Source of the DNA: a virus
Strand: one strand, 5' to 3'
DNA length: 23,335 bases
IMG/VR virus record: IMGVR_UViG_3300013772_000045
Location: 1-23,335 of that record
Below, in pieces: positions 4,486 through 23,335 of the stretch (its first letter is position 1; each line of letters begins with the position of its first letter). The notes under the pieces are model-generated. The model worked only from the letters and a program-made list of their open reading frames with translations, had not been told where the DNA came from and ran no database searches. Both the position numbers and the translations under genes were made by a program.

Positions 4486-4489
4486 TGCT

Positions 4490-6221: not shown

Positions 6222-6230
6222 TAGCGCAAT

Positions 6231-6292
6231 CGAATAACTACAGGCTCATGGCATTGCGTGGGGCCGCCGTCTTCGGACGTGCGGCCCTTTTT
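6231..6292 (+). terminator. leader with terminator-like hairpin before the capsid block
   Basis: GGGCCGCCGTC (6261-6271), loop TTCG, then GACGTGCGGCCC (6276-6287) form an 11-bp stem with one bulged T, closed as C(UUCG)G, followed by TTTTT (6288-6292). This is a textbook intrinsic terminator. The gene start is only 20 bases further on, leaving no room for a promoter after it, so the capsid block must be read through it. The upstream part (CGAATAA, ACAGGCTCAT, TGGGGCCGC) is 31/38 identical to the leader at 18336-18373, which has a different loop. It may be an antiterminated terminator, an attenuator, or a 5' mRNA-stabilising hairpin. Confidence 0.75.
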
Positions 6293-6312
6293 GTTGTCCT
6301 CCGGGAGTAGGG

Positions 6313-7404: not shown

Positions 7405-7445
7405 GTACCGCCTAGGCCGCGGTTGGAGAAAGGAAACACCCCAAT

Positions 7446-7766
7446 ATGGCCAAGAACCGTGCATTTGCAAACGCTCGCAAGAACTACTACCCGGTGGCGT
7501 CCGGCGTCCTCTCCGGCGACCCGACGTGCGTCGGGCAAATCCCCGGCGTGGCGTTGACCGACCGTGACGCGGCTGGCTATGCCAGCCTCGACACCGGGGG
7601 CGCTTACAGCCTCGAAGTAGAGGGTCAGCCGGCTGCGGGAGACATCCTCTACTGGCACAGCACGAAAACCATCAACGCCACGTCCAGTGGAGGGACCCGC
7701 TTCGGCTACGCCATGCAGACGATCGCGTCGGGCACGGCCACCATCCCCGTCAAGCTGGGCTACTAG
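7446..7766 (+). CDS. capsid cement/decoration protein (DUF2190-like)
   Basis: A 106-residue beta-rich protein. It begins with a basic helix (MAKNRAFANARKNYYPV), followed by strands with GDPTCVGQIPGVALTD, AAGDILYWHSTKTINATS and a closing TATIPVKLGY. This order matches the DUF2190 family, found beside major capsid genes and thought to stabilise the capsid surface. It sits in the usual place between protease and capsid. AGAAAGGA lies about 11 bases before the ATG. Confidence 0.8.
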   Translation: MAKNRAFANARKNYYPVASGVLSGDPTCVGQIPGVALTDRDAAGYASLDTGGAYSLEVEGQPAAGDILYWHSTKTINATSSGGTRFGYAMQTIASGTATIPVKLGY

Positions 7767-7805
7767 GCCCGGCACCAGAACCGCACAAAACTTAGGAGGC
7801 GCCAC

Positions 7806-8975: not shown

Positions 8976-9175
8976 TGGCGGAGCGCGAGCTGCCCCCGCC
9001 GAGTACGACCGTTGAGATGTACTTGGCGGCGATTCTGGACGAGATGAGGGCGCTAAACCGGCGCCCTCAATCGTTACCAGACGGCACCGTGGAACTAAAG
9101 GAACCTAAACGAGATGACGGCACCGGCACCAACCGCAGCCCTCGAAACAACGCTAGAGCTCCTGCGCGACGTTGA
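8975..9175 (+). CDS. small hypothetical protein after the capsid gene
   Basis: A 66-residue protein coupled to the capsid gene by TAATG. MAERELPPPSTTVEMYLAAILDEMRALNRRP gives a short helix flanked by Pro-rich and basic disordered segments; the tail ends NNARAPARR. Small proteins of this form commonly follow capsid genes, but no function is known to me. Its last 62 bases overlap the next gene in another frame. Confidence 0.6.
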   Translation: MAERELPPPSTTVEMYLAAILDEMRALNRRPQSLPDGTVELKEPKRDDGTGTNRSPRNNARAPARR

Positions 9176-9554
9176 GCGCTCCATGCGCTCGATCCTCGTC
9201 CAGGACTTCAGCGTGCCGGATAACGCCATCCGTTCCGGCATCCAGGAGACGCCGCCCGGGCTAAGCCTTCGCGTCGACCGCGACTGGCTGCCGGCTCACC
9301 TCAGCAAGACGCTGGACGACGTGATGGCGGAGCTCTGCAAGTCGGTGCGAAACGTGCTGGATGCGAAGCTGCCGAGCCTGTCGCACGGCCTGGGTATGCG
9401 CTACGTCCCGCAGGCCGGCCTCGTCGAGATCGGCGTAGGGCCCGACACCCAGCCGATCTATCCACGCATCATCACCGCGACCGTCAAAGAGTTACGCATA
9501 ACGAAGGCCGGCGAGCGGCACCTGCGCGAGCGCAACAAGCACGGCGCGCTCTAA
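9114..9554 (+). CDS. hypothetical virion-region protein
   Basis: A 146-residue protein with an AAAGGAA leader (9098-9104) before the ATG. An N-terminal helix (ALETTLELLRDVERSMRSI) leads into a mixed middle and a C-terminal strand-helix part (PRIITATVKELRITKAGE, then HLRERNKHGAL). No family recognised. Its position between capsid and tail-fibre-like genes suggests a head or connector role, but nothing in the sequence proves it. Codon use matches the neighbours. Confidence 0.7.
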   Translation: MTAPAPTAALETTLELLRDVERSMRSILVQDFSVPDNAIRSGIQETPPGLSLRVDRDWLPAHLSKTLDDVMAELCKSVRNVLDAKLPSLSHGLGMRYVPQAGLVEIGVGPDTQPIYPRIITATVKELRITKAGERHLRERNKHGAL

Positions 9555-9570
9555 AGAAAGGGACAAACCG

Positions 9571-9996
9571 ATGGCGATGAGCGACTACCTCGAGGGCCAG
9601 ATCAGGGCCGACCTGTTCAGGACCACCGCGCGTACACGGCCAACCGTCCAGGCGTCCTCGCTTGCGACGGCCTCAACCACCGACGCGCACACCGGCGCGA
9701 CCTTTACCGAGGTCACCAACGCCAACGCCTACGCGCGGCAGAACCTCGCGCCGCTGGACGCCAATTGGTCGGCGCCGGACGCCACCGGCGGGCTGACCGC
9801 CAACCTGTCGGCGATCACGTTCCCGACTTGCACGACCGCCACCTGGGGCACCGTTACGGACGTCGTACTGTGCGACTCGGCGACCTGGGGCGCGGGTAAC
9901 GCGCTGTTCCACGGCGCGCTCACGGCCTCGAAGACGGTTGGTGTAGGTGACGTGTTCCAGTTCGCTATCGCAGCGCTTTCGGTGACCTTCTCGTAG
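9571..9996 (+). CDS. phage tail-fibre/decoration-like protein
   Basis: A 141-residue protein of a family widely annotated as phage tail fibre protein in siphophages. Diagnostic parts are MSDYLEGQIRADLFRTTA at the start, YARQNLAPLDANWSAPD, TFPTCTTATWGTVTDVVLCD, and the closing NALFHGALTASKTVGVGD. The fold is expected to be a beta sandwich. AAAGAAAGGGA precedes the ATG by 8 bases. The true virion location is uncertain; such genes often lie next to capsid genes, so a head-surface role is possible. Confidence 0.7.
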   Translation: MAMSDYLEGQIRADLFRTTARTRPTVQASSLATASTTDAHTGATFTEVTNANAYARQNLAPLDANWSAPDATGGLTANLSAITFPTCTTATWGTVTDVVLCDSATWGAGNALFHGALTASKTVGVGDVFQFAIAALSVTFS

Positions 9997-10047
9997 CAGG
10001 CTGAACATCGACAAACTGGAATACGTCGCCAGTAAAAGGAGAATCCA

Positions 10048-10554
10048 ATGCCCCTGACGATAACCAACAAGCTCTCGACACCGGCCGCGGCCTTGACGAA
10101 GTACGGCTACGTCCTCGACGCCGCTACCGGCCTCTGGCGCAAGTCCCGCGGCGAGCACGGCTTCGACCTCTCGACCGAGCAGTGGCTACCCGTCGATGGC
10201 GGCTTCCTCTGCTTCATCGCACCACGCTCCGGCTTCGGCTCGATCCCGTTCGGCTGGCCGGTGGCGGCGCTGCTGATCGGCACCGTGGCGCAGATCATCA
10301 CCGGCGTCTCTGATGGCGCTGTCGTGCGCGCCGATGCACCGACGCCCGTCGTGGGCCTGGTGCAGGTGCCGCAGGGCCTTGCAGACGAATGGACCGGGAC
10401 CTCGGGGCTGCACCCGGCGTCGCACCCGCAGGCTTACCGCTGGGTGTGGACGGCCGACGAGGTCGCGTTCACGTACCAGTTCGCCGAAGAGGGATGGACG
10501 AAGACGCAGGACCCGGCAACTGGCGCCGTGACGATGCGGCGCGAGCACGATTAG
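10048..10554 (+). CDS. hypothetical virion-region protein
   Basis: A 168-residue protein with an AAGGAG ribosome site (10036-10041) 6 bases before the ATG. It is rich in Trp, Gly and beta-prone segments (GYVLDAATGLWRKSRGE, WTADEVAFTYQFAEEGWTK). A hydrophobic stretch near 70-90 (GWPVAALLIGTVAQIITGV) is too interrupted to be called a membrane helix with confidence. No family recognised. It lies in the accessory block between the fibre-like and repeat proteins. Confidence 0.7.
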   Translation: MPLTITNKLSTPAAALTKYGYVLDAATGLWRKSRGEHGFDLSTEQWLPVDGGFLCFIAPRSGFGSIPFGWPVAALLIGTVAQIITGVSDGAVVRADAPTPVVGLVQVPQGLADEWTGTSGLHPASHPQAYRWVWTADEVAFTYQFAEEGWTKTQDPATGAVTMRREHD

Positions 10555-10561
10555 TAAGTAA

Positions 10562-11023
10562 ATGCACCCAAAGATAGCAGCGGCCAAGCAGCAGCTAACC
10601 GGTGTGCGCAACCCGCGCGACAAAGGCATCTCCGACGCGCAGTGGGCCGAATGGCAGGGCACTGTAGACAAGATCGCTCAGGTCGGTCACGAGGCCCACC
10701 GGGAAGAGCCCGAAGCCGTGGATCAGATCGCTGGGCTTGTGCAGCGTGGCAACCAGGGGAAACTCGAAAAGCGCGAGTGGCTCCGACAGGTAACGGCCAG
10801 CGAGCCTGACTGTCACTGGTCCGACGTGACGGTCAATCAAGTTACGTTCTCCTGCGGTTGCTCACATTATCAGTGGTTCAGGGACTCCGAACCGGACGAC
10901 GGCAAGGTAATCCGCCACCACCAGGCGCTGAGTCTTTGCGATCGTCACAAGCATCTGAGCGAAAAGGCTGCATGGCAGGCGAGCCTGGACGAGTCCGATA
11001 AATTAGCCGCCGCGCAGGAATAG
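10562..11023 (+). CDS. hypothetical protein with a Cys/His cluster
   Basis: A 153-residue, mostly helical and highly charged protein. The C-terminal third has FSCGCSHYQWF followed by IRHHQALSLCDRHKHL; these Cys and His residues could form a metal site. The Shine-Dalgarno is poor, and the start is 8 bases after the upstream stop, so reinitiation is likely. The next gene starts 3 bases after its stop. No family recognised. Confidence 0.65.
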   Translation: MHPKIAAAKQQLTGVRNPRDKGISDAQWAEWQGTVDKIAQVGHEAHREEPEAVDQIAGLVQRGNQGKLEKREWLRQVTASEPDCHWSDVTVNQVTFSCGCSHYQWFRDSEPDDGKVIRHHQALSLCDRHKHLSEKAAWQASLDESDKLAAAQE

Positions 11024-11026
11024 CCA

Positions 11027-14000
11027 ATGGCTAGGATCTGGCCGACCTGGTTTCAGTGCGCGAATTATGCGAGCGCGACCTCGGCGCACTTTATATCGCC
11101 TCTTGGAGTTCCACTCTCCGCAGTTAATACTATAGAGACAAATGCAGCCGTTAAGGCCGTAGATGCCGTCACTCTAATTAATCTGCAGGTCTATTGTTCT
11201 ATCTATTCGGCAAACGTTGCAGTTACCTCACGAAACAATGGCGGCGCAGGTAATCAAACCGTTACAGTCAACGCTGTCTCTGCTCTATTTGAAGATGTAA
11301 CTAACAACGACGCTATCACTGCTGGCAATACTTGGGATGTTCAGTTAGCAGCGACTGCTGGAATTAGTATCGCACTAATAGGCATGCATCTCTCAATGGC
11401 TGGAAATACGCCGGTCATAGGTTTGACTCTTAATGGGTTGCAGGCCAAAACCACAACTGATATTTCCCCAATAGCGGGCAATACTATTGGCGTAACTGAG
11501 TCTGCACAACAAAATAAGGTACAACGTTCTATAACCTTCGGCTGCATGAGGGCGATCTGTACCACATATAGCGGTACATCTTCGACTCAACGTTTTCGGA
11601 AAAACACAGCAAATGGAAATCAGAATCTAGTTATCACGGCGACTGGTACGTATGAAGATACGACGAATACAGACGCCTGTGTAGCAAACGATCTAGTTGT
11701 CGTTGCGATGGTCAATTCATCATCTGCGGGCGGCACACACAACCAAGAACTGTCATTGTTCACACTTCGTGGCAATCAAGCATATGAATGGAATGCTATC
11801 GTAAATCAAACCACAGGCTTCTTTGGAGGCGGCTTCAACGGTGCGGGCGTAGATAATATTGTTCCAGTACGGGCGAGCCTCACCTTAAAGTTACTTATAG
11901 CCAATGTCATTGCTGCGGTTGCAGCAAGTACGTTAATAACTAGGAAGAATGGTGCAAATGGCAACCAGTCAGTTTCAACAGCTACTAACGCACAGGTGGT
12001 TGATGCTGTTAACTCTGATGCGCTCGTAACAGGCGATAAAATAGATACCAAGGCTACCAATTCAGGAACCTTCAACGCAGCGGGCGTCGACTTCGAGGTC
12101 GTCAGCGGCACGACTTGGCAAGGCGCTGCTGCACTAACCGCAAGCGCTACTCTCGCAGTCGATGCGGCCCTTATCTACGCGGCGGCTATCGCCTTGGCCG
12201 CCCCAACATCAATATCACCAGCACCCACTGCGAACTACGCCGCTGCCTCAGCGCTTGTAGCCTCAGCGGCGCTGGCAGCCCTCGGGGGCCTGCTCTCTGC
12301 CGGTGCGTCCGCCCTTGCAACAAGCGCCGTCCTCAGCGCCAACGGCACCGTCACCCACAACGCCACGGCTGCACTCACGGCGCCCACCAGCATCGCCCCA
12401 GCCGCGACCGTCACTTATGCGGCGGCGTCGGCCCTCGCAGCGTCTGCGGCTATTAGTCCCGCTGCAACTGAGACCTACACAGGAGCCTCCGCCCTGGCAG
12501 GGAGCGCCAGCATCAACCCCGTTCCGTTGCTCACGCTGGGCGCTGCGTCTGCCCTGGCATCGAGCGCAACCCTGGCCGCCGCTACGGTCGTCACACACAA
12601 CGCCCTCGCGGCGCTGACGGCCTCTGCTGCGATAACTCCCGGCGCTACGGCCACATACGCTGCGGCGAGCGCCCTAGTTGCCTCCAGCGCGGTCACATCC
12701 GGCGCCACGGTCAACTACACGGCGGCGAGCGCGTTGGCCGCATCAGCCGTCCTGATAGCAACCAGCAGCCTGCTCGTAGTCGCCACCTCAGCATTAGCAG
12801 GCAGCGCGACGATCTCTCCCGCAGGCGGATTGATTTTCTCGGCGGCTTCATCTCTTGCCTCAAGTGCGAGTCTTGCGGCGGGCGGTACGGAGACATACGC
12901 GGCGGGCACCGCGCTTGCGGCCTCAACGGCGCTCGCTGCCGTCGCCTTCCTGTCACTCCCCGGCGCGGCGTCTCTCAGCGGGTCCGCATCGCTCACGGCG
13001 GCCGGCAACGTCACGCACAACGCGACGGCCTCCCTGAGCGCAGCAACGGCGCTTGTGGCGGGCGCGACGCTGCTCTATGCGTCGGCGTCAGCGTTGGCCG
13101 CGTCCACGAGCCTGAGCGCCAACGGTACGGAGGCCTACAGCGCCGCTATCGCCCTAGCCTCAGCAGCCAGCCTCTCTGCCGCTGCGAAAATGAGCCTCGC
13201 GGCCGCGAGCCTTCTCACGGCCCCGGCCTCGCTGGCTGCTGACGGTGCCGTGGCCCATAATGCAACCGCCGCCCTGTCCGGCTCCGCCGCAATCGCTGTG
13301 GATGGGGCGGTCACTCACAACGCTGCGTCCGCCCTTGCCACAACGACCGTCCTTACGGCGCTGGCCCTTGCCACTCACAACGCTACGGCTGCTCTAGCCG
13401 GGAGCGCCTCGCTATCGGCTACGCCGTTGCTCACACTAAAGGCCCTGGCGGCGCTGGCGGCGTCTGCAGCCCTCGGCGCGGACGGGACGCTCGCAGGGCA
13501 GATCCACGCCAGCGCGGGCCTTAGCGCCAGCGCCTCACTCGCCGGTGCCGGCTCGCTGACGTTGGCGGCACTAGCAGCTTTAGCGGCCACGGCAACCCTC
13601 AACCCACCCTCAACTGTCACTCACAACGCCCTGGCGACGCTGGCCGCGAGTGCGGCGCTTTCTGCGGCGGCGCTGCTCACGGTAGGCGGCGCCGCTCTGC
13701 TGGCTAGTACGGCGACGATTACGCCGGCGGCGGGCGTCACGCTCCGCAACACTGCCTCGTTACTCACCACCGCGTCGTTGGTCGCGCTAGGCGGCTTAGT
13801 CCTCTCGACTGCTCAGGCGTCATTGGCAGCGACGACGACTCTCAATGCGCCGTCCACCGTCACATACAACGCCACGGCCGCAATGGCCGGAAACGCTGCA
13901 ATGGCGGCTGTTGCGTTGCTCACGGTCGGTGCTGCGGCCGCGCTGGCCGGCTCGGCACAGTTCACGGCCTCGGGTAGCGTGACGGTCGCGGCGGCTGCCG

Positions 14001-14437
14001 CGTTGGCCTCGATCACGGCGCTTAGCGCCCTAGCAGGCATCCGCCTGGCGACGGCGCAGGCGTCTCTGGCGGCGAGCGCTGCGATTGCGCCCGTGCCGCT
14101 CCTGACGCTGCGTGGAGCCGCGGCGCTGGCCTCAGTTGCGGCCATTGACGCTGAACCTAGTCTCATGCTCGGTGCCGGCGCAACCCTGATTAGTCCGGCC
14201 ACGCTCGCTACCTCGGCAATCTCAAGCGGTGCTAGTGCTCTGCTCAGCCTCACGGTGACGGCGAGCCTCTACGCCAACGCGCACCTCTACCTCCCCGGCG
14301 GCCCCTTCGTTACGCCGCTGGTGGACGTCGGCACGAAGCTGGTCGACGTCGGCTCGATCCGGCTGCGTACCGCGGGCGCGCCGTTGGTCGATGTTGGCTC
14401 GCAGCGCTTACAATCAGACAGGCGGTTACTGATATGA
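11027..14437 (+). CDS. large Ala/Ser/Thr-rich repeat virion protein
   Basis: A 1136-residue protein in three parts. Residues 1-365 hold three related modules of roughly 115 residues, each marked by an N-x3-GNQ motif and a following D-x2-N-x-D-A (about 68-103, 189-224, 302-339). A related GNQ/D-N-D-A pattern is familiar to me from phage surface proteins. Residues 366 to about 1090 are some 36 tandem 20-residue repeats, example VTHNATAALAGSASLSATPL. Residues 1091-1136 carry three LVDVG words. Residues 1-365 are encoded by DNA of much lower GC than the repeats, pointing to a mosaic join near 12100. A weak AGGAA precedes the ATG; the stop overlaps the next start (ATGA). It is probably a fibre or surface appendage. 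Confidence 0.8.
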   Translation: MARIWPTWFQCANYASATSAHFISPLGVPLSAVNTIETNAAVKAVDAVTLINLQVYCSIYSANVAVTSRNNGGAGNQTVTVNAVSALFEDVTNNDAITAGNTWDVQLAATAGISIALIGMHLSMAGNTPVIGLTLNGLQAKTTTDISPIAGNTIGVTESAQQNKVQRSITFGCMRAICTTYSGTSSTQRFRKNTANGNQNLVITATGTYEDTTNTDACVANDLVVVAMVNSSSAGGTHNQELSLFTLRGNQAYEWNAIVNQTTGFFGGGFNGAGVDNIVPVRASLTLKLLIANVIAAVAASTLITRKNGANGNQSVSTATNAQVVDAVNSDALVTGDKIDTKATNSGTFNAAGVDFEVVSGTTWQGAAALTASATLAVDAALIYAAAIALAAPTSISPAPTANYAAASALVASAALAALGGLLSAGASALATSAVLSANGTVTHNATAALTAPTSIAPAATVTYAAASALAASAAISPAATETYTGASALAGSASINPVPLLTLGAASALASSATLAAATVVTHNALAALTASAAITPGATATYAAASALVASSAVTSGATVNYTAASALAASAVLIATSSLLVVATSALAGSATISPAGGLIFSAASSLASSASLAAGGTETYAAGTALAASTALAAVAFLSLPGAASLSGSASLTAAGNVTHNATASLSAATALVAGATLLYASASALAASTSLSANGTEAYSAAIALASAASLSAAAKMSLAAASLLTAPASLAADGAVAHNATAALSGSAAIAVDGAVTHNAASALATTTVLTALALATHNATAALAGSASLSATPLLTLKALAALAASAALGADGTLAGQIHASAGLSASASLAGAGSLTLAALAALAATATLNPPSTVTHNALATLAASAALSAAALLTVGGAALLASTATITPAAGVTLRNTASLLTTASLVALGGLVLSTAQASLAATTTLNAPSTVTYNATAAMAGNAAMAAVALLTVGAAAALAGSAQFTASGSVTVAAAAALASITALSALAGIRLATAQASLAASAAIAPVPLLTLRGAAALASVAAIDAEPSLMLGAGATLISPATLATSAISSGASALLSLTVTASLYANAHLYLPGGPFVTPLVDVGTKLVDVGSIRLRTAGAPLVDVGSQRLQSDRRLLI
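12122..14290 (+). repeat. tandem 60-bp repeats coding for 20-residue units
   Basis: About 36 in-frame units of 60 bases. A typical unit reads V-T-x-N-A-x-A-A-L-A-A-S-A-x-L-x-A-x-x-x. The period is almost perfect; three units are one or two residues longer (for example those containing STAQASLAATTTL or ATAQASLAASAAI, and one with QIHASAGLSASASL). Units are diverged at DNA level, with varied synonymous codons, so they are kept by protein selection rather than being recent copies. CACAACGCC recurs near 12355, 12595, 13315, 13375 and 13625. Alternating small and large hydrophobic residues suggest short beta strands in a solenoid. Confidence 0.85.
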
Positions 14438-14994
14438 CGATTGCACAAGTCCGCGTCCTGACCTCAGACCTCCCGATGTACGAGCGCTCGGTAGCGACCG
14501 GCGACGGCGCGACTCTGGAGTATCAGGTCGAGCAGTACCCGGTCCTCACCGACACCGCCAAGGTCTACATCGACGGCACGCTGCAGGACCCGGCGACGGA
14601 TTACGACCTCGATACCGAAGTTGGCCTCGTGACCTTCGCAACCGCCCCGGCAGCCGCCGGCGCCATCGTAGTCACCTACCGCCATGCGATCCTCTCAGAC
14701 GACCAGATAAACACGCTGCTCGGCCTCGAGTCCGACGTTCGCCTGGCCGCGGCGCTGGCCCTGGACACGATCGCCTCAAACGAGGCGCTGGTGCAGAAGA
14801 AGATCCGGCTACTCGACATTCAGACGGACGGCCCCGCCGTTGCGCTCGCCTTGCGCGCGCACGCGACCGCGCTTCGTGAGCAGGTCGCCTCGGGCGTTGA
14901 AGACGGTGCCGGCTTCGACATCGCCGAGTGGGTCTTCGAACCCTTTGGGCGACGCGAGCGCATCTACAAGCAGTTCGAGCGAGGCGTCCTCTAG
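14434..14994 (+). CDS. head-tail adaptor-like protein with N-terminal beta module
   Basis: A 186-residue protein. Residues about 15-88 form a small beta module (VYIDGTLQDPATDYDLD, GLVTFATAPAAAGAIVVTY), a pattern shared by many phage and adhesin proteins. Residues about 88-160 are helical (LSDDQINTLLGLESDVRLAA, IRLLDIQTDGPAVALALRA), like head-tail connector subunits that dock under the portal. It is the first of five tightly overlapping joining genes. It overlaps the repeat-protein stop (ATGA), with AGGCGG about 10 bases upstream. The adaptor assignment is moderate; the beta module could instead bind the repeat protein. Confidence 0.65.
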   Translation: MTIAQVRVLTSDLPMYERSVATGDGATLEYQVEQYPVLTDTAKVYIDGTLQDPATDYDLDTEVGLVTFATAPAAAGAIVVTYRHAILSDDQINTLLGLESDVRLAAALALDTIASNEALVQKKIRLLDIQTDGPAVALALRAHATALREQVASGVEDGAGFDIAEWVFEPFGRRERIYKQFERGVL

Positions 14995-15365
14995 TGAGCA
15001 AACGCGCCCTGACTCACCCACGCTTCCTGGCCAAGTTGCCCGACATCTACCCCTTCAAGGCCGCGATCCAGCAGGCGACGGCGAGCGGGACGAGCTTCGG
15101 TACGTTGGTAGAGACGTGGGCCACGGTTAGCGGCCTCGGTCTCATAGACTGCCGCGTCGCGCCGGTGCTGGCCCAGGAGATGCGCGGCCCGCAGTTTACG
15201 CAGCTGGTCACGACGCACCAGATCGCCTTGCGCGGCTACTACCCGCAGATCGTCGAGACGATGCGCGCCGTGGTCGACGATGTCGGTTGGGACATACAGG
15301 GCGTCGAGTACGACGGGAACAAGATCACGACGCGGCTGCACGTGCTGGCGGTGACGCTCGCATGA
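14994..15365 (+). CDS. head closure/head-tail joining-like protein
   Basis: A 123-residue protein. The GTG at 14994 is chosen because it overlaps the upstream stop (TAGTG) and gives the expected size; a longer reading from 14928 would lie inside the previous gene. Features are SKRALTHPRFLAKLPDIYP and a C-terminal strand-rich half (VVDDVGWDIQGVEYDGN, KITTRLHVLAVTLA) as in small stopper proteins. The family is not certain from sequence; position between adaptor and gp10-like genes supports a joining role. Confidence 0.65.
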   Translation: MSKRALTHPRFLAKLPDIYPFKAAIQQATASGTSFGTLVETWATVSGLGLIDCRVAPVLAQEMRGPQFTQLVTTHQIALRGYYPQIVETMRAVVDDVGWDIQGVEYDGNKITTRLHVLAVTLA

Positions 15366-15559
15366 AGACGCTGACTGAGTTCACAGCTAACGCTCGCTCG
15401 TGCCCTGAATGCTGGGATGGCTGGACGTGCGAAAAACACCCCGGCTTCCCGTGGCCGCACCCGGACGAGAATGATCCACGCGGCGAATGCGCTGGACCCG
15501 ACGCGCCTTGTCCTAATGGTTGTCTCGGCATTGACCGCGAGATGAAGGCGCTGACATGA
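15362..15559 (+). CDS. Cys-rich small protein within the joining genes
   Basis: A 65-residue protein with six cysteines in three pairs: SCPECWDGWTCEKHPG, GECAGPDAPC and CPNGC, plus His and Pro residues. I recall similar Cys-rich small proteins with a PWPH word from phage genomes. Metal binding is likely. It overlaps both neighbours by ATGA, so it is co-translated with virion genes although it has no obvious structural role. The start follows the upstream overlap; the longer reading from 15287 is antigenically unlike any protein I know and lies inside the preceding gene. Confidence 0.7.
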   Translation: MKTLTEFTANARSCPECWDGWTCEKHPGFPWPHPDENDPRGECAGPDAPCPNGCLGIDREMKALT

Positions 15560-15948
15560 GCGGGCCGATTGTTAGCATGACGGTATCGGGCGGCCCCGAA
15601 CTCGCGGCAAAGTTGGCTCGATTGGGCGAGGCGGTATCTTCGCAGGTGATGGCCAACGCCTTGCTCGCCGGCGCGCTGGTTATCGAGGCTTCGGCGAAAG
15701 AGAAGGCGCCGGTCCTCACAGGCAACCTGCGTCGCTCCATCGGCGTGGCAGTCGCGCAAACACTGGACACCGGTTCTTTGTACGCCGACATCGGCACCGA
15801 CGTCGAGTACGCGCCCTATCAGGAATTCGGGACCCGCTTCATGGCCGCGCAGCCCTACCTGCGCCCCGCCTTCGACGAGAAGAAGGGCGAGGCGCAGAAC
15901 ACTATCCGTGACGCGCTCAAACAACTGATCGAAGCGGCGGCGCGCTGA
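15556..15948 (+). CDS. HK97 gp10-like tail completion protein
   Basis: A 130-residue protein matching the HK97 gp10 family. Matching parts are LAAKLARLGEAVSSQVMANAL, AKEKAPVLTGNLRRSI (the family hallmark KAPVDTGxLR), YAPYQEFGTRFMAAQPYLRP and a C-terminal helix. These proteins take part in head-tail joining or tail completion. GAAGGCG lies about 6 bases upstream; its end overlaps the next gene by TGATG. Confidence 0.9.
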   Translation: MSGPIVSMTVSGGPELAAKLARLGEAVSSQVMANALLAGALVIEASAKEKAPVLTGNLRRSIGVAVAQTLDTGSLYADIGTDVEYAPYQEFGTRFMAAQPYLRPAFDEKKGEAQNTIRDALKQLIEAAAR

Positions 15949-16331
15949 TGGCCCTGATCGAAGAGGCCATCCGTTCCCTGGTCCTCAGCGCCGCCAGCGG
16001 CCGCGCCTACCCCTACAAGCTGCCCCAGGGCGTAACGCTGCCGGCCTGCACCTACTACAAGGTCTCAGCCCCGCGCGACCACACGCAGCAGGGGCCGTCC
16101 GGCCTCGTCTCTGCGCGTATCCAGGTCTCGAGCTGGGGCACGACCTACGACGCGGCCAAGACGCTCTCCGACGCGGTGAGGCAGGCCCTAGACGGCTACA
16201 TGGGCACCACGGACGGCGTTTATATCGGCGGCGTCCAGCTGGTTAATGAGACGGACCTTAGCGAGCCGGAGCCGGAGATCTTCCAGACGGCGATGGATTT
16301 CCGCGTTATGCACGGCGAGCAGATCGCATGA
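15948..16331 (+). CDS. tail terminator protein (DUF3168-like)
   Basis: A 127-residue protein. LIEEAIRSLVLSAASGRAYP, LPACTYYKVSAPRDH, ARIQVSSWGTTYDAAKTL and a final FQTAMDFRVMH follow the DUF3168/minor tail U pattern. Such a protein caps the tail tube and ends its growth. It would normally lie directly before the tail-tube gene; here two modification enzymes are placed between them. The stop overlaps the methyltransferase start (ATGATGA). Confidence 0.85.
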   Translation: MALIEEAIRSLVLSAASGRAYPYKLPQGVTLPACTYYKVSAPRDHTQQGPSGLVSARIQVSSWGTTYDAAKTLSDAVRQALDGYMGTTDGVYIGGVQLVNETDLSEPEPEIFQTAMDFRVMHGEQIA

Positions 16332-17110
16332 TGGATCGCGCCGCCTTCGAAGCCATGTGCGCCCGGGCCGCAACTCGCGAGCCCGCCGAAGGCTCCATCA
16401 TCAAGGCCACGGTCTACGGCGAGTGGCCGATCTTCGTCGACGAACGCGATAAGAGCCTCGCGCATTGGCTGGTGACAACAGGCTACTGGGAGTCGTGGAT
16501 CACCCTGGCGATCATGAATCGCATCCAGCCGGACTGGAATTGCGTCGACATCGGTGCGAACTTTGGTTACTACTCCGTGCTCATGGCGCACAAGGGCGAG
16601 CGCGTGTTGGCCGTCGATCCGAGTCCGCTTATGGTCGACCTGCTAGGCCGCACCCTTGAAGCTACCGGCCGGAACTGGGGCGTTAGCCGGGTGGCGGCAT
16701 GGAACACGGATGACGAACTATTGTCTCTCGTCACCCCGGAGGATTTCTTCGGTAGTGCGACTGTTATGGACGGCCGGCCCACATCAGGAACCCCCTGCGC
16801 CAGCATGAAAATCGACACGATGGTCGCGAGCTGGGACCGCGTGGACCTGATCAAGATCGACGCGGAGGGAGCGGAGCCGGAGATCTGGGAAGGTATGCAG
16901 CAGACGCTACGGCATAACCCGATCGTGGTGCTGGAGTACAGCCCGAGCCGCTACAAGGACGCGGCTGGCTTCGCGCGGACTATCGAGGCCGCCGGCTACC
17001 CGCTCGCGGTAATCGACCCTGCCTCGCGCATCGTGCCGTCCAGTGTCGACGCGCTTGCAAACATGAGCGAGGACCTGGCGATGCTCTGGCTGGAACGGCC
17101 TCGTGGCTAA
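16328..17110 (+). CDS. FkbM-family methyltransferase
   Basis: A 260-residue S-adenosylmethionine-dependent methyltransferase. Motif I is CVDIGANFGYYSVLMA (VDIGANFGYYS at 73-83), the next acidic strand is VLAVDPSP, and DLIKIDAEGAEPEIWEG (from residue 173) is the FkbM hallmark. Known members often O-methylate sugars. It overlaps the tail terminator and the glycosyltransferase, so the pair is co-expressed with tail genes. A substrate on a phage glycan is inferred, not shown. Length and motifs suggest an intact enzyme. Confidence 0.9.
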   Translation: MMDRAAFEAMCARAATREPAEGSIIKATVYGEWPIFVDERDKSLAHWLVTTGYWESWITLAIMNRIQPDWNCVDIGANFGYYSVLMAHKGERVLAVDPSPLMVDLLGRTLEATGRNWGVSRVAAWNTDDELLSLVTPEDFFGSATVMDGRPTSGTPCASMKIDTMVASWDRVDLIKIDAEGAEPEIWEGMQQTLRHNPIVVLEYSPSRYKDAAGFARTIEAAGYPLAVIDPASRIVPSSVDALANMSEDLAMLWLERPRG

Positions 17111-18299
17111 GCCGCGCTTGTTATGGGCTGGCGACTCGCCCACGGCACCGACCGGCTTCGCGCGTGTGACCGAGAACGTGCTCGCGCGCCTGCGACCCGA
17201 CTGGGCGGTCGGCGTTATCGGAATCAACTACTCCGGCGACCCTCACAAGCTGCCATATCCGATCTACCCCGCTAGCCTCGGCGGCGACATGTACGGCCTC
17301 GGGCGCTTCGAGGAGATCGTCGCAGGGGTTTCGCCCGACGTGGTGCTGATTCTTAACGACCCCTGGATCGTCGCCGGCTTCATGCAGTTCAAGACGGACG
17401 TTCCGCTCGTCGCGTACATGCCGGTCGATGCGCCTAACCAGCCGCTCGAGGCGATGGCCGTGCTCAACAAGTTGACGAAGGCCGTCTTCTACACGCAGTT
17501 CGGCCTGGACGAGGCGCGCAAGGCCGGATACACGGGGCCGGCTGAGATCGTGCCTCACGGCGTCGATGCGCAGATGTACCGCCCACTCGAGCGCGGCGAA
17601 GCGCTGGCGGCCCTGGGGCTAGACGAGAAGCTGCCAGACGACGTGTTCATCGTCGGCAACGTCAACCGCAACCAGCAGCGCAAGCGCCTCGACCTGACGA
17701 TGATGCTCTTCGCGCGCTGGGTGGAGCAGCACGAGATCCCCGCAAATGTGCGCCTGCTCCTGCACTGTGCCCGTAGAGACATCGGCTGGGACCTCGTCTC
17801 GCTGGCGCGCTACCTGGGCATCAAAGAGCGGTTGATTTTCTCCAACCCAGCCGAGACCAGCATGAGCGGGCTGCCAGAGGACGTAATGCCTTACGTCTAC
17901 AACGCGATCGACGTTCAGGTGTCGACGACGATGGGCGAGGGTTGGGGCCTGACGACTCACGAGGGCATGGCCTGCGGCGTGCCGCAGTTGGTGCCGGACT
18001 GGGCGGCGCTGGGCGAGTGGCCCCGCGGCGCGGTGCGCTATGCGCCGGTAGGAGCGCGGCAGGCACACGAGAATATGCTGACGACCATCGGCGGCATTGT
18101 GGACCAGGACGCCTTCATCGGCGAGATGGACGCGCTCTATCGCGATGCAGACCTGCGTCGGGAGTACGGGCGCCTGGCGCTGGCGCGTGCGACAGAACCC
18201 CGCTTCTCATGGGATAGCGTCGCGGCGCGCTTCGATACGTTGCTCCGGGAGGTCGCCGCGCAGGCGCCGGTGCAGGAGCGCGAGGCCGTCGCCGTATAG
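17103..18299 (+). CDS. GT-B (GT4-like) glycosyltransferase
   Basis: A 398-residue enzyme with the two Rossmann halves of a GT-B fold. The N-terminal part has WAGDSPTAPTGFARVTEN and VAYMPVDAPNQPL. The donor-binding half has VGNVNRNQQRKRLDL, the EX7E pair E279 and E287 in EGWGLTTHEGMACGVP, and a closing FSWDSVAARFDTLLRE. It likely transfers a nucleotide-activated sugar. The GTG start overlaps the methyltransferase by 8 bases. The last bases hold the -35-like element of promoter P3. The acceptor is unknown; tail tube, capsid or the Ser/Thr-rich repeat protein are candidates. Confidence 0.9.
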   Translation: MAKPRLLWAGDSPTAPTGFARVTENVLARLRPDWAVGVIGINYSGDPHKLPYPIYPASLGGDMYGLGRFEEIVAGVSPDVVLILNDPWIVAGFMQFKTDVPLVAYMPVDAPNQPLEAMAVLNKLTKAVFYTQFGLDEARKAGYTGPAEIVPHGVDAQMYRPLERGEALAALGLDEKLPDDVFIVGNVNRNQQRKRLDLTMMLFARWVEQHEIPANVRLLLHCARRDIGWDLVSLARYLGIKERLIFSNPAETSMSGLPEDVMPYVYNAIDVQVSTTMGEGWGLTTHEGMACGVPQLVPDWAALGEWPRGAVRYAPVGARQAHENMLTTIGGIVDQDAFIGEMDALYRDADLRREYGRLALARATEPRFSWDSVAARFDTLLREVAAQAPVQEREAVAV

Positions 18300-18323
18300 C
18301 CGCAACGGCGGAAGCGCTATAAT
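18295..18323 (+). promoter_or_regulatory. predicted promoter P3 upstream of the tail-tube block
   Basis: A perfect TATAAT (18318-18323) with TATAGC at 18295-18300, 17 bases upstream. The core AACGGCGGAAGCGCTA repeats the element at 54-69 with one change. Predicted start of transcription is near 18330, just before the CGAATAA that opens the hairpin leader. Confidence 0.65.
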
Positions 18324-18335
18324 GCGCGCAACAAC

Positions 18336-18398
18336 CGAATAATCAACAGGCTCATAGCTAAGCATGGGGCCGCTTCCCGAAAGGGGGCGGCCTTTTTT
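18336..18398 (+). terminator. leader with terminator-like hairpin before the tail-tube block
   Basis: GGCCGC (18368-18373) pairs with GCGGCC (18387-18392), and CCC with GGG around a GAAA loop (18379-18382), followed by TTTTTT (18393-18398). The 5' part repeats the capsid-block leader (31/38 positions), including ACAGGCTCAT and TGGGGCCGC, while the inner stem and loop differ. The tail-tube ATG is 22 bases after the T-run, so transcripts must pass the hairpin to express it. It may also terminate part of the transcription arriving from the glycosyltransferase gene. Confidence 0.75.
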
Positions 18399-18420
18399 CT
18401 TTGCCCGAGGGAGACCACCG

Positions 18421-18876
18421 ATGACTAGCCCCGCAATCTTCGCCCAGGGCACCTTCGTCAAGATCGGCAATGGCGGCACGCCTACCGAGACTTTCACGAC
18501 GATCGCGCAGCTCAAGTCGATCGCTGGCCCAACCTTCACAACCGACGACATCGACGTCACGACTCACGACGGCTCTCAGGGCTTCCACGAATATATCCCC
18601 GGCCTCAAGAATGGTGGAGATGTCACCTTCGACATCAACTTCGTGCCGACCAACGCGAGCCATTCGGCCGCCTCCGGTGTCCTCAGTCGCTACATGGAAG
18701 ACGGCTCGGCGAAGAATCACAACTTCCAGATCACCTTCCCTGACGACTCAACCGCATCCGGTATCGCCTGGACCTTCCCCGGCTACGTCAAGAGCTTCGA
18801 CATCGGCGCGCCGGTGGACAACGTGCTCAGCGCCAAGGTCGCGATCAAGGTGGCCGGTCGCCCGACATTAGCTTAG
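18421..18876 (+). CDS. major tail tube protein
   Basis: A 151-residue protein with the sequence pattern of siphophage tail-tube subunits: TFTTIAQLKSIAGPTFTTDD, DVTTHDGSQGFHEYIPG, GGDVTFDINFVPTNASH and ITFPDDSTASGIAWTFPGY. The subunits stack as hexameric rings. GAGGGAG precedes the ATG; the upstream reading from 18364 would begin inside the hairpin and is rejected. It follows promoter P3 and precedes the chaperone genes, the standard order. Confidence 0.88.
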   Translation: MTSPAIFAQGTFVKIGNGGTPTETFTTIAQLKSIAGPTFTTDDIDVTTHDGSQGFHEYIPGLKNGGDVTFDINFVPTNASHSAASGVLSRYMEDGSAKNHNFQITFPDDSTASGIAWTFPGYVKSFDIGAPVDNVLSAKVAIKVAGRPTLA

Positions 18877-18880
18877 CGCG

Positions 18881-19294
18881 ATGAACCGCGAGGCTCGCCG
18901 CAAGCTCGCCAAGAAAGGGACTCCGATGTCAACCACGCCCCTAATCCCGACCGCCAAGGTGATGCTCGACAAAGAGCGCACCCTGCGCATGGACCTCAAC
19001 GCATTGATCGCCTTCGAGAACATGACCGGGCAGTCGATCCTCCGAGACGGCATCGACCTGAAGAAACTCTCCTCTGCCCACTTCCTGACCTTGCTCTGGA
19101 CCTGCCTCGTGCATGAGGACGAGAGCCTGTTGGAGCGTGAAGTCGGCGCGATGATCGGGGCAAGCAACCTGATCCCGCTGACATTGGCCCTTATCGAACT
19201 GTTCAAATTTTCGATGCCGGAGGCCAAAGAAGACGAATCCCCTTTGGCCGAAGCGGCTCCCGCAGTGCCACAGCCGAAGAACTCTGGGATATAG
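18881..19294 (+). CDS. tail assembly chaperone, short form (gpG-like)
   Basis: A 137-residue protein. The core TAKVMLDKERTLRMDLNALIAFENMTGQSIL (about residues 23-53) and the helical remainder are typical of chaperones that hold the tape measure during tube assembly. Two starts are possible: ATG 18881, with a phage-like MNREARRKLAKKG opening and coupling to the tail-tube stop 4 bases away but no Shine-Dalgarno; or ATG 18926, with AAAGGGA 6 bases upstream, giving 122 residues. The last 16 codons follow the slip site used to make the longer form. Confidence 0.85.
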   Translation: MNREARRKLAKKGTPMSTTPLIPTAKVMLDKERTLRMDLNALIAFENMTGQSILRDGIDLKKLSSAHFLTLLWTCLVHEDESLLEREVGAMIGASNLIPLTLALIELFKFSMPEAKEDESPLAEAAPAVPQPKNSGI

Positions 19295-19614
19295 CAGTCC
19301 AGCGGCTACATCTCGGCATGGTGGAGGCCGGCCGCCTGACGCCGCGGCGAGTCCACCGGCTGCTGATGGTCTGGGTTGAGGACCAACTGATGCTCGAAGA
19401 GAACGAAGACTTGAGGTCGGGCATCGTGGCATCGGTTATCGCTAACGTCAACCGCGACCCCAAACAGCGCAGCGAGCCCTACTCGCCGCAGGACTTCATG
19501 CCGCGCCGGCGCCCCGAGATCCCGCCCGAGCCGATGAGCGTCGATCAGACCGTTTCGTTCGTGGCGATGCTCAACGTGGCCCTTGGCGGCGTTGACCTGC
19601 GACCGACACGATGA
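18881..19614 (+). CDS. tail assembly chaperone, frameshifted long form (gpG-T-like)
   Basis: A -1 slip at CCCTTTG (19240-19246) joins the short chaperone to a frame open from 19117 to the TGA at 19612-19614. After the slip the sequence continues GRSGSRSATAEELWDIAVQ, then GMVEAGRLTPRRVHRLLM and QDFMPRRRPEIPP, as in T domains. The product would be about 244 residues (229 from the inner start). An in-frame ATG at 19318 exists, but the EELWDIAVQRL segment that belongs to the T domain lies before it, so a stand-alone gene from 19318 is unlikely. The end overlaps the tape-measure start (ATGA). Confidence 0.85.
19240..19246 (+). other. -1 ribosomal frameshift site CCCTTTG
   Basis: In the zero frame the codons read TCC CCT TTG, so the heptamer C-CCT-TTG has the exact X-XXY-YYZ form. 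Slipping back one base re-pairs CCC and TTT. It lies in the overlap between the two chaperone frames (19117-19294). Other runs there, such as the AAATTTT near 19206, do not fit the phase. Confidence 0.8.
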
Positions 19615-21935
19615 ACGAAGAACTAGCGGCCCTATTCGTCCGGCTCAGCCTCGACGCTTCGGAACTCAAGGCCGGCTTTGCCGAGGCGCTGGCCGCCGCC
19701 AACACCGCCTCAAGCGGCCTGCAGAGCGCCCTTGGTGGCGTAGAAGGCAGCGCCGGCAAGGCCGCCACGGGCCTCAAGGGCGTCGGTGGTGGCGCCTCCG
19801 AAGCACAGGGCCTGCTCAGCGCCCTCTCCGGCACGCTAGGCCAGGTCGACGGTGGCCTGGGCAACCTCGGCCACACGGCAACAAGCCTTATCGGTTCCTC
19901 CGGCGGCGAGATGGGGTTGCTGGGCATCGCCGGCGCCGCGGCCATTGCCGCCGGCGCGCTTGTGGAACTCGGCATGGCCGGCGGGCGGCTTGAGACCGAA
20001 ATCATGCAGCTCTCTGCGGTCACAGGACTCAGCACCGAGCGCGTTGACTTCTGGTCGAAGGCCCTCGGCGACGTAGGCGGTAGTGCTGGCTCGTTGACTA
20101 TGGTTTCGCGCCTGCTCAGCACCGAGATCGTCAGCATCAACACGTCAATCGAGGCGGGCAACCCGCTCGTCGGTAAGTCCGCCGCCGTCTATGACCTTCT
20201 CGGCGGCTCGATTAAGGACGCCAGCGGCAACCTGCTGACCGGCGGCGCGGCGATGGAAGACATCATTCCAAAGCTCGTCGCGATGACCGACGAAGCCAAG
20301 CGCACGCAGCTCGGTCAGGAGGTCTTCGGCCGTTCGTGGGCCAGCATCGCGCCGCTGGTGGCGAATTACGCCCAGGTTGCCGAGAAGGCGACAGCGCAGT
20401 CACAGCGTCTGGCCGATGCGTTGGGGACGGACGTTACCGGCGCAGCCATCGCCTACAACGAGAAGATGACCGACATCAAGACCTCGATGGAGATTCTTGA
20501 GGTCAAGGCGCTGCCTCCGGTGCTGTCGTTGCTGACTGATCTTGAAAGTGCGCTGGAATTCATCGCCCACGTGGGCACGGTTGACATCAACTTTGCCGTC
20601 CACGGACTGGAGGGCCTAGGGAACCTCATACCGGACTGGCTCAAAGGTCCTTTCGGCGGTGGCGGCAGCGGCTTCGAGGGCACGCAGGTGTCGGCAGCCG
20701 AGTTAAATAACGCTAGTGAAAGGGCCAATCAGGATCGTATAAATCGAGAGGGGGGTTCGCCTCTCTCTCTCTCTCCAGGAGAGGCCGCTTCCGCCTCTGC
20801 GGCCCTCAACGCGAAGCTCAAGGCTGACGCGCTGGCCGAAGAGGCGCGTAAGAAGGCTGAGTCTGAAGCCGAGAAGGCGCGGACCAAGGCCGAAGCGGAC
20901 GCCAAACGCGCTGCCGCTGCCGCCGTAGCCGAAGCCGAAGCACACCTGCAGGCAGTTCAAGCGGCCCTCAAGGACGGGACGATTAGCTATGCCGAGGCCA
21001 TCGACCTAAAGCTGACGCCGGCCTATGCCGCGCACCTTGAGGTCCTGGCCTCGGTACGCACTCACGCCGACGCCGCGGCGGACGCCTACTTCCAGCAGCA
21101 AAAGGCCGTCGATGGCATGGTCGAGTCGCTCAAGATGGGGCAGTCCGCCTTCGTCGACTTTAGCGAGAAGCTCACCACAGAGGCGCTCAAGCTAACACAG
21201 ACGGCGCTAGGCAGCGTCCTGGGCCAGAACACGCAGCAGATGGCCGCGCTCAACCTCCAGCAGGCGCAGCAGCAGGCGCGCGTTGATACCACCACCGGCA
21301 CGGCGCACGCCGCCGCACAGCGCCAACTCGACGCCATCAACGCGAGCATCAAGGCCGAGTTAGACCACGTCGGCATCCTCAAGGCGTCGGGCGAGGTCGC
21401 TAACAAGCTGCTGCTCACCGACAAGGAGCGCGATAAGGTAGCGGGCCAACTGATCAAAGACGAGCTGAACCAGTCGACGGCACTGCTGAAGATGGATTCG
21501 AGCATCAAGTTGTCGGTTATCCCCGGCTTCACGGCGGCGCACGACGCGAGCATGGCACTAGCCGCAGGCCTCAACGCCGCGACTAAGGCCCTAGGCGCGC
21601 CAACGCCGGCAGCGCCGAAGCCAGCAGCCCGCGCCTCCGGTGGACCCATCGCGTCCGGCGTGCCCTACATCGTCGGTGAACGCGGCCCGGAGCTCGTCAT
21701 CCCCAGCCTGCCCGGCTACGTCCTGCCCAGTTACCTATCGCAGCGGCCAGCGAGCATCAGCGGGGCCGGCAGCAGCGGCGTAGGCGGCGGGAGTGGCTCG
21801 GGAGGCCTCTCTATCGGTGTCAGCGGCCCTCTGACCATCGTCAACAACAACCGCCAGCAGGACGTAAACAGCGCCCTCGGCGACCTCGCCTTCGGTGTCG
21901 CCGGCCAGCTACGCCGCCGCGGGGTCTACCAGTGA
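19611..21935 (+). CDS. tail tape measure protein
   Basis: A 774-residue protein that sets tail length; at about 1.5 angstrom per residue this predicts a tail near 115 nm. The N-terminal part (LFVRLSLDASELKAGFAEAL) and glycine/alanine-rich helices are typical. A hydrophobic segment lies near residues 100-130 (LLGIAGAAAIAAGALVELG). A long Ala/Lys/Glu coiled coil spans about 403-455. The C-terminus has SGVPYIVGERGPELVIPS, the usual tape-measure ending. A lower-GC stretch with (CT)7 lies at 20701-20776, codons about 364-389. The ATG overlaps the T-domain stop; the stop overlaps the next GTG. Confidence 0.92.
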   Translation: MNEELAALFVRLSLDASELKAGFAEALAAANTASSGLQSALGGVEGSAGKAATGLKGVGGGASEAQGLLSALSGTLGQVDGGLGNLGHTATSLIGSSGGEMGLLGIAGAAAIAAGALVELGMAGGRLETEIMQLSAVTGLSTERVDFWSKALGDVGGSAGSLTMVSRLLSTEIVSINTSIEAGNPLVGKSAAVYDLLGGSIKDASGNLLTGGAAMEDIIPKLVAMTDEAKRTQLGQEVFGRSWASIAPLVANYAQVAEKATAQSQRLADALGTDVTGAAIAYNEKMTDIKTSMEILEVKALPPVLSLLTDLESALEFIAHVGTVDINFAVHGLEGLGNLIPDWLKGPFGGGGSGFEGTQVSAAELNNASERANQDRINREGGSPLSLSPGEAASASAALNAKLKADALAEEARKKAESEAEKARTKAEADAKRAAAAAVAEAEAHLQAVQAALKDGTISYAEAIDLKLTPAYAAHLEVLASVRTHADAAADAYFQQQKAVDGMVESLKMGQSAFVDFSEKLTTEALKLTQTALGSVLGQNTQQMAALNLQQAQQQARVDTTTGTAHAAAQRQLDAINASIKAELDHVGILKASGEVANKLLLTDKERDKVAGQLIKDELNQSTALLKMDSSIKLSVIPGFTAAHDASMALAAGLNAATKALGAPTPAAPKPAARASGGPIASGVPYIVGERGPELVIPSLPGYVLPSYLSQRPASISGAGSSGVGGGSGSGGLSIGVSGPLTIVNNNRQQDVNSALGDLAFGVAGQLRRRGVYQ

Positions 21936-22780
21936 CCTCCGCAGTCCTGCGTTACCTCTTCATGTTCGATAACGGCAAGATGACGCCCGCGTCGGGCATC
22001 GTTGCCACCGCATCCGGCGTCTTCCCCACCCACCGCTACGAATACCAACAGGAACAGCCGCTCCTGTACTCCATGGTGCCGCTGACGGGCGCGAACTACG
22101 GGTTCGACCAGATGGGTGGGGGCGCTGCGATCAAGGCCAACGGCGTCGAGGTGGTGCGCTTCCTGGATGTTGGCGCAGCCAGTGGGATCAACGCCGACGT
22201 CGACCGCTTTAAGGCGATGCAGACCTACGGCCGCGGGCGCATCTGGACCCAGGTAGCGCCCGCTTCTGGCCTGCGTTGGGCCTGGGCGCGCCTCGCCGCG
22301 ATGCCGTCGCTCTCGTTCACGGTTGAGGACGCGTCGGTGGTGCAGCCGGTATTCGTCACGTTTGAGCGCTTCTCCGACTGGTATGGCGACCCGATCGGCG
22401 CGGCCGGCGAGTTTACGCTAGGGAGCAACCCTCAGACGATCACCGTCACTAACCCCGGCTCGACGCCGGTCAAGAACGCCATCATCACGGTTAAGAACAC
22501 CTTCAACGGCCTTGTGATCACCAACACGACCACCGGCTATGTCCTCGCCTCGTCGCGCGTCGGTGCTGCCTCGAGCGACTGGCTGCGCTTCGATGCCGGC
22601 CGCAATACGGTGCAGTTCTCTAGTAATAGCGGTGCAACCTGGGCGGACGGCTCGGCTAACTTCATTCGCGCCGCCGACCAGGTTGGCCTGATGGTTATGG
22701 CCCCCGGGCCCAACAGCGTCACGATTGCCGGCGCTAACGGGGCGGCAATCGTCTTCGACTTCGCCGAGGCTTGGGATTAG
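21932..22780 (+). CDS. distal tail protein (Dit-like)
   Basis: A 282-residue protein following the tape measure, where siphophages encode the distal tail hub. The first part has LRYLFMFDNGKMTPASGI, HRYEYQQEQPLLYSMVPL and GRGRIWTQVAPASGLRWAW. The second half is a beta sandwich (FTLGSNPQTITVTNPGST, PVKNAIITVKN, DAGRNTVQFSSNSGATW), as in the galectin-like part of Dit proteins. The GTG start overlaps the tape-measure stop (GTGA). Family assignment is by position and pattern. Confidence 0.75.
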   Translation: MTSAVLRYLFMFDNGKMTPASGIVATASGVFPTHRYEYQQEQPLLYSMVPLTGANYGFDQMGGGAAIKANGVEVVRFLDVGAASGINADVDRFKAMQTYGRGRIWTQVAPASGLRWAWARLAAMPSLSFTVEDASVVQPVFVTFERFSDWYGDPIGAAGEFTLGSNPQTITVTNPGSTPVKNAIITVKNTFNGLVITNTTTGYVLASSRVGAASSDWLRFDAGRNTVQFSSNSGATWADGSANFIRAADQVGLMVMAPGPNSVTIAGANGAAIVFDFAEAWD

Positions 22781-23170
22781 ATGCCCCGAGCACAGATCAT
22801 CATCGAGACGCCGGCGCTAGCCGAGGTCGAGTTGCCCATCGTCGCCCTGGCTGATTATGAGATCAACCGCGAGCTAAACGCCGCCGGCTCGTGGGCCGTA
22901 TCGTTCCCGGCGCCGGAGCCGCTCGCGAAGCAAATCAAATCCCGCTGGCGTGTCTCGATCATGGAAGAGGGTCGCGCCGGCTACCTGCTGCGCCGAGGCA
23001 TCGTCCTGGATCACACCTACCGTGTCGCAGCGGACGGGACGGCAGTCGTCGCGCTAACGGGCATGAGCCGCCTCTACGACCTCGCACGGCAGTCTACTCA
23101 CCAGGGCCTCGCCTTCACCGGCGCGGACATCGGCTCGATCGCTAACACGCTGACGGGCGAGGGGGTGACG
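22781..23170 (+). CDS. tail hub/minor tail protein, N-terminal part only
   Basis: The frame opens directly after the distal tail stop (TAGATG) and codes for about 130 residues of a beta-rich protein: ETPALAEVELPIVALADY, NAAGSWAVSFPAPEPLAKQ, YLLRRGIVLDHTYRVAADG, TGMSRLYDLARQSTHQGL. Siphophage proteins of this kind (Tal or Gp37-like) are normally several hundred residues long. The sequence up to about GEGVT reads as phage; the frame then continues without a stop into recombinase-like sequence. The gene is therefore truncated or fused. No clear Shine-Dalgarno beyond a GAGG 13 bases upstream. Confidence 0.7.
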
Positions 23171-23335
23171 GGCCCCGCCGGCGCGGCCATGACCCCAGCC
23201 CACGCGAGAAAGAACGGAAAGCTCTACCGCTATTACATTTCAACGGACGTCATCAGGAATGGGGCCTCTGCCTGCCCAACCCGCCGAGTGCCGGCGGCAC
23301 AGATCGAAGCGGTCGTGATCGCGCAGATCAAAACC
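23171..23335 (+). pseudogene. serine recombinase C-terminal zinc-ribbon fragment fused in frame
   Basis: The last 55 codons read GPAGAAMTPAHARKNGKLYR, then YYISTDVIRNGASACPTRR and VPAAQIEAVVIAQI. This is the pattern of the zinc beta-ribbon and following helix of large serine recombinases (AMTPxHxRKxGxxYRYY, then CPxRRVPAxxIE). The catalytic N-terminal domain is absent, and it is in frame with the tail protein upstream. The join falls in GC-rich, repetitive DNA (about 23168-23188). It runs off the window. A chimeric assembly at a contig end is the simplest explanation; a real insertion or recombination cannot be excluded. Confidence 0.7.

Follow-up and report, generated by a model that had tools for sequence, protein, structure and literature searches.

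A duplicated leader with an intrinsic terminator precedes two late gene blocks of a phage and may act as an attenuator

Duplicated leaders in the phage late region

Two copies of a short leader, each made of a conserved box that runs into an intrinsic terminator, lie directly upstream of the capsid block and of the tail-tube gene of a phage. In our preferred reading, which we hold with about as much doubt as belief, they are promoter-proximal attenuator leaders that would gate late modules by antitermination. The window, i.e., the whole stretch of DNA analysed, is the 23,335-base record IMGVR_UViG_3300013772_000045, which holds only part of a phage genome. Its gene set is of the siphovirus type (small and large terminase, portal, Mu F-like protein, head protease, decoration, capsid, tail tube and tape measure). 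The coordinates of the features are collected in Table 1.

The sequence-only reading that this analysis followed up had described near-duplicate leaders, about 12 kb apart, at the heads of the capsid and tail-tube blocks. The duplication and the distance (12.1 kb) are borne out, with 31 of 38 aligned columns identical and one column a gap. The second copy indeed stands directly before the tail-tube gene; the position of the first needs refinement, as it directly precedes the gene for the head maturation protease, which is followed by those for the decoration protein and the major capsid protein. The whole repeat is longer than the box (18336-18399 matches 6231-6293), and similarity extends farther 5', to GCGCT..ATAATGCG. 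When the capsid leader was compared with the window by BLASTN, 18265-18413 was matched at E = 1.7e-7, whereas all other non-self matches had E values of at least 0.067; the duplication of the box is well above chance. Both copies share the anatomy CGAATAA-(1-2 nt)-nACAGGCTCAT-r-GC-nnn-GC-r-TGGGGCCGC, after which come an inner stem-loop, the GCGGCC arm that closes the stem, and a T-run. Within the terminators, only 2 of 13 positions of the inner segment are identical, against 31 of 38 in the box, thus indicating constraint on the box and the outer stem; judging from this alignment, these alone are conserved between the copies.

Other parts of the window carry features of separate interest. Genes for an FkbM methyltransferase and a glycosyltransferase (16328-18299, plus strand) lie directly 5' of the tail leader and possibly serve modification of virion or host surface glycans. 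An Ala/Ser-rich protein of 1136 amino acids with no Pfam match is encoded at 11027-14437 (plus strand), with degenerate repeats at multiples of about 60 nt. Between the portal and Mu F-like genes is a patch of small minus-strand ORFs (4490-5147), the first of which has a weak match to FitA-type ribbon-helix-helix proteins (E 0.0017, below the cut-off) and by its sequence is a possible regulator.

Table 1. Positions of the leader elements and neighbouring genes in the window, and of the box copies in phage G001
Feature	Position	Strand	Basis
Candidate -10 TATAAT, tail copy, 25 nt 5' of hairpin	18318-18323	+	Exact hexamer, expected so placed at 0.0008 of random positions in the window
Candidate promoter TTGACG-18-TATCTT, capsid copy, 21 nt 5' of hairpin	6192-6221	+	9/12 consensus; weak
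Possible 6-codon leader ORF, tail copy, MRATTE-stop (ATG CGC GCA ACA ACC GAA TAA), GGCGGAAG upstream	18322-18342	+	Sequence; overlaps -10; weak
Possible 9-codon leader ORF, capsid copy, MRRIFSAIE-stop, ATGCG start, GAA TAA end as in tail copy	6208-6237	+	Sequence; without Shine-Dalgarno; weak
Conserved box, tail leader, CGAATAATCAACAGGCTCATAGCTAAGCATGGGGCCGC	18336-18373	+	31/38 columns shared with 6231-6267; E 1.7e-7
Conserved box, capsid leader, CGAATAACTACAGGCTCATGGCATTGCGTGGGGCCGC	6231-6267	+	Alignment with tail copy
Possible antiterminator hairpin, tail leader, GGCUCAU-A-GC-UAA-GC-AUGGGGCC	18349-18371	+	-7.1 kcal/mol; 3' arm 18366-18371 equals terminator 5' arm; predicted
Possible antiterminator hairpin, capsid leader, GGCUCAU-G-GC-AUU-GC-GUGGGGCC	6243-6265	+	-8.4 kcal/mol; predicted
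Intrinsic terminator, tail leader, GGGGCCGC..GAAA..GCGGCC stem and T-run 18393-18398	18366-18398	+	-21.2 kcal/mol, z = -2.5
Intrinsic terminator, capsid leader, GGGGCCGCCGUC-UUCG-GACG-U-GCGGCCC and T-run 6288-6292	6260-6292	+	-23.6 kcal/mol, z = -4.75
Head maturation protease, first gene of capsid block	6313-7404	+	phrog_15531, phrog_122, phrog_133, PF25209 (block-wide basis)
Decoration protein	7446-7766	+	Capsid block, after protease
Major capsid protein	7806-8975	+	Capsid block, after decoration protein
Tail tube (major tail) protein	18421-18876	+	phrog_158 E 6.9e-24; PF16461/PF16460
G001 box copies (L186-L190)	13852, 20285, 21034, 26799, 37284	forward	Box match

Terminators and the requirement for readthrough

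As first read from the letters, both copies finish in a GGGGCCGC-based hairpin with a T-run about 20 nt 5' of the start codon (6292 to 6313 and 18398 to 18421), and the loops (UUCG and GAAA) and inner stems are unrelated yet paired in both. Both terminators are strong (Table 1), and that of the tail leader ranks best among the terminator-like sites of 4000-23335. The further suggestion that this reflects selection on structure stands in part: pairing is kept despite the differing inner stems, but two copies in one phage are weak evidence and no relative keeps the element. In both copies the intrinsic terminator lies between leader and gene, as expected of an attenuator. The gap between T-run and start codon is too short for a promoter plus a ribosome site at both the protease (6313) and the tail tube (18421), and therefore mRNA of these genes must cross the terminator. 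This requirement for readthrough follows from the layout and is independent of any model of regulation.

Alternative hairpin and the attenuator reading

The box can also fold as a hairpin (GGCUCAU..GC...GC.UGGGGCC); in both copies the terminator uses the 3' arm of this hairpin as its own 5' arm, so that the two predicted folds are mutually exclusive. When partial transcripts of either copy are folded, the box hairpin is predicted until the terminator is nearly complete, and then the terminator wins. Each copy can form all nine pairs, and of the five substitutions that separate the copies, four lie on unpaired bases, the fifth exchanging a U-A pair for U-G. Nine pairs survive five random substitutions in 1.4% of trials, a figure that is flattering because the structure was picked after the sequence had been viewed. 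In energy, the box hairpin is equalled or bettered by 6-9% of shuffles of the 17 nt upstream of the shared arm (p 0.06-0.09) and matched by 17-29% of the window's 17-mers set beside that arm. At -7 to -8 kcal/mol it is also much less stable than the terminator at -21 to -24 kcal/mol. Since this energy is ordinary, we hold an antiterminator hairpin in the box to be plausible only, as a predicted fold.

What is observed is the duplication of the box, the terminators and where they stand, and that no space is left after them for another promoter. The attenuator reading adds a leader promoter, the alternative hairpin, a factor and regulated readthrough, all of which we infer. For the promoter, the tail copy offers an exact TATAAT with no recognisable -35 nearby, which speaks for the reading; against it, the -10 candidates of the two copies are out of register with each other, and sites like the capsid candidate are not in excess in a scan of the window (3 against 2.9 expected from shuffles). 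RNA polymerase would start at or 5' of the leader and transcribe the conserved box, and by default it would halt at the terminator directly before the late block. An antitermination event, most likely the binding of a phage factor to the nascent box RNA, would hold the GGCUCAU...GGGGCC hairpin. The held hairpin would use up the terminator 5' arm, leading to readthrough and hence to expression of the capsid or tail block.

Search for further copies

Searches of 2.9 million viral contigs and about 85,000 genomes, of Rfam and of the relatives examined, by patterns, a covariance model and protein guidance, brought up no third copy of the leader. An exact pattern of 22 fixed bases had no match in the viral contigs, nor did the full-box pattern in the genome contigs. 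A pattern with relaxed spacing gave 21 matches, which were rejected as they did not combine box and terminator; 15 viral and 26 genome matches to the 5' half of the box were likewise rejected, being without a terminator and, in several cases, recurring in one coding context. The covariance search that the sequence-only reading had proposed was carried out (model R1) and scored only the two window copies, with no relatives keeping the element. Searches of 34 full records gave nothing, and one match (L061, E 0.054) was set aside as chance because it is a lone terminator-like hairpin. At the Rfam gathering cut-offs there was no match in the window or in the second phage described below (G001), with weak matches lying far below the cut-offs. 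Within the open-licence literature no description of the element was found.

The protein-guided sets comprised 28 capsid loci (best 49% identity), 80 terminase loci that were kept (one at 92%), 14 portal loci and none for the tail tube. In the capsid relatives (34-49% identity) the leader is absent 5' of the protease and of the tail tube. The near relative with the terminase at 92% (L052) diverges exactly at the capsid-leader site, and since its contig ends within 400 bases, the presence of a leader farther along cannot be judged. At this site L052 carries instead an ORF that by eye resembles Cro/CI-type helix-turn-helix proteins (4068-4343, minus strand). Absence from other phages is unprovable, because many records are fragments.

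A parallel in a second phage

A within-record comparison of sequences upstream of terminators, designed after the first case was known, brought up the distant phage G001 (IMGVR_UViG_3300031520_000047, locus L111). Its record is 40 kb long, and its terminase and that of the window are 37% identical. A broader screen took in 696 terminator-like sites from 35 records, looking for pairs with a common upstream box, and only the window (score 24) and G001 (17 and 15) stood out with genes downstream; a higher-scoring pair in G016 was rejected as a coding-sequence repeat at both contig ends. The box of G001, GGCUAUNCAGCC, is private to it, differs from the window box and is present in five copies on a single strand (GGCTATNCAGCC: 5 forward, 0 reverse, and 0 in the reversed control). 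The copies head the blocks of the small terminase, scaffold, coat, tape-measure and endolysin genes. Four of the five lead straight into terminators in which the 5' arm doubles as the 3' arm of a GGCU/AGCC hairpin, and the inner stems of these terminators (-19.6 to -33.6 kcal/mol) are again unrelated yet paired; at the coat gene the hairpin has no terminator and adjoins the ribosome site. A TATAAT-like -10 hexamer (at least 5/6) is found 23-29 nt upstream in 4 of the 5 copies, as compared to 2.1% of random G001 sites. Among the other viral contigs, the G001 box with a matching terminator is absent.

G001 is a stronger case of the box/terminator layout than the window itself. The two boxes share this layout; descent from a common box is not demonstrable. 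The sequence-only reading had seen a duplicated regulatory device that it could not name. The duplicate does head both late blocks, and its combination of box and terminator is in keeping with a regulatory leader; the name can now be narrowed to an antiterminator/terminator (attenuator) layout, because the layout matches and because G001 shows it independently at five late-module heads.

G001 also contains a promoter-like repeat, AGTTTCCC..CCCTGCCTATAAT, at L111 15198-15234 and 15385-15421, 5' of two terminator-ended leaders. It has no TTGACA-like -35 and is perhaps an activator-dependent late promoter.

Alternative explanations

Weighing against the attenuator reading are the two copies only, in one phage, the ordinary energy of the hairpin and its weakness beside the terminator, the weak capsid promoter, the homology to the G001 box that is not demonstrable, and the coat copy of G001 with its hairpin but no terminator. 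The main rival is that the terminators are partial and unregulated and set transcript ratios or insulate late modules; the box would then serve as a promoter, or as DNA bound by a late activator, and its overlap with the arm would be incidental. We regard this as unlikely, although the ordinary energy of the alternative hairpin agrees with it, as does the cultured Stenotrophomonas phage Suzuki. This phage has an annotated terminator (MZ326855.1, 34992-35027; L299 899-934) after its major tail gene and about 20 nt 5' of the start of the tape-measure chaperone gene; the hairpin shows 91% identity to the one in the tail leader. But Suzuki's terminator comes after the abundant gene, whereas the window's comes before it, and the conserved part of the leader lies downstream of the candidate -10, outside the promoter, and abuts the terminator arm. 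A DNA site fits poorly with the G001 box, as its loop (AUNC) is non-palindromic and its copies are strand-biased 5:0, unlike a site for a dimer. We also gave little weight to a palindromic DNA site for a repressor dimer, given this loop and the bulges that break the dyad in the window.

The next alternative is processive antitermination of the Q/AlpA type, in which a phage protein would load on polymerase during a pause at the leader promoter so that the terminator is ignored, the box being a loading or pause element and the hairpin irrelevant. Promoter, short leader, terminator and first gene are the exact layout of Q and AlpA, and AlpA acts at more than one promoter of this kind (PMC7969949). 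In addition, AATAAY, which comes shortly after the probable start, looks like a -10-like pause element. We nevertheless consider this alternative improbable, as the site of AlpA and lambda Q lies between -35 and -10, a region that is unconserved between the copies, unlike the sequence up to the terminator arm.

Attenuation by a leader peptide, in which ribosomes on MRATTE or MRRIFSAIE would end at the conserved GAATAA, cover GGCUCAU and decide the hairpin, seems quite improbable to us. The stretch from ATGCG to GAATAA is open in frame in both copies despite a length difference of 9 nt, but an in-frame ATG within 10 codons is expected by chance at 10% of sites for each copy, a ribosome site is present in the tail copy only (the capsid copy has no Shine-Dalgarno), the ATG of the tail copy overlaps TATAAT, and no comparable ORF was seen in the G001 leaders. 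Least probable of all is that the copies are two paralogous phage small-RNA genes (promoter, RNA of 65-70 nt, terminator) that precede the blocks by coincidence: the anatomy and the conserved 5' part fit, but both copies run in the late-gene direction about 20 nt 5' of a start codon with no other promoter left, and Rfam has no match at its cut-offs.

If the attenuator reading is right, some phages would switch on their late genes per module, each terminator needing antitermination at the RNA level, instead of relying on a single late promoter and a Q-like protein. The leader element is short and portable, and G001, with five copies at five late modules, would be a second independent test system. 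A wider proposal, which we put forward as doubtful, is that a phage-coded RNA-binding antiterminator acts on a phage-private hairpin before every late module, the 3' arm of which is shared with the module's terminator. One protein would thus open all late operons, and its recognition sequence would vary by phage, with the window and G001 as two independent cases.

Comparison with known systems

In lambda N/nut and HK022 put, a leader RNA hairpin lets polymerase pass terminators. Unlike lambda N/nut, the window leader has no boxA-boxB recognisable by eye, and unlike HK022 put it lacks a two-hairpin structure, its predicted hairpin overlapping the terminator itself. With lambda Q and AlpA the leaders share the promoter-terminator-gene arrangement, and AlpA, which acts at two loci, likewise has a terminator between the promoter and the first gene of a late/lysis operon (PMC7969949). 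But these proteins use a DNA site between -35 and -10, whereas in the window the conserved box begins 3' of the -10 candidates and would be transcribed.

ANTAR leaders (EutV/NasR/AmiR) occur in several copies per locus, with a short common sequence that overlaps the 5' part of the terminator (PMC3369931), and the two window copies likewise share a short sequence overlapping the terminator 5' arm. ANTAR leaders, however, need two small hairpins with hexaloops that have A at position 1 and G at position 4 (PMC3369931), while the window leader has a single predicted hairpin with an unpaired upstream part and loops that differ (GCAUUG in the capsid copy, with G1 and U4, and UAA in the tail copy). 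In the RAT leaders of BglG/SacY/LicT, a hairpin shares its 3' part with the 5' arm of an intrinsic terminator near the gene, and the two structures are mutually exclusive (PMC9981650). The window leader is similar in its short motif and predicted hairpin overlapping the terminator 5' arm, and differs in standing in phage late modules with copies private to one phage. In the best reading, the leaders would work like RAT and ANTAR leaders, by analogy of layout and apart from the ANTAR hairpin features, in which they differ.
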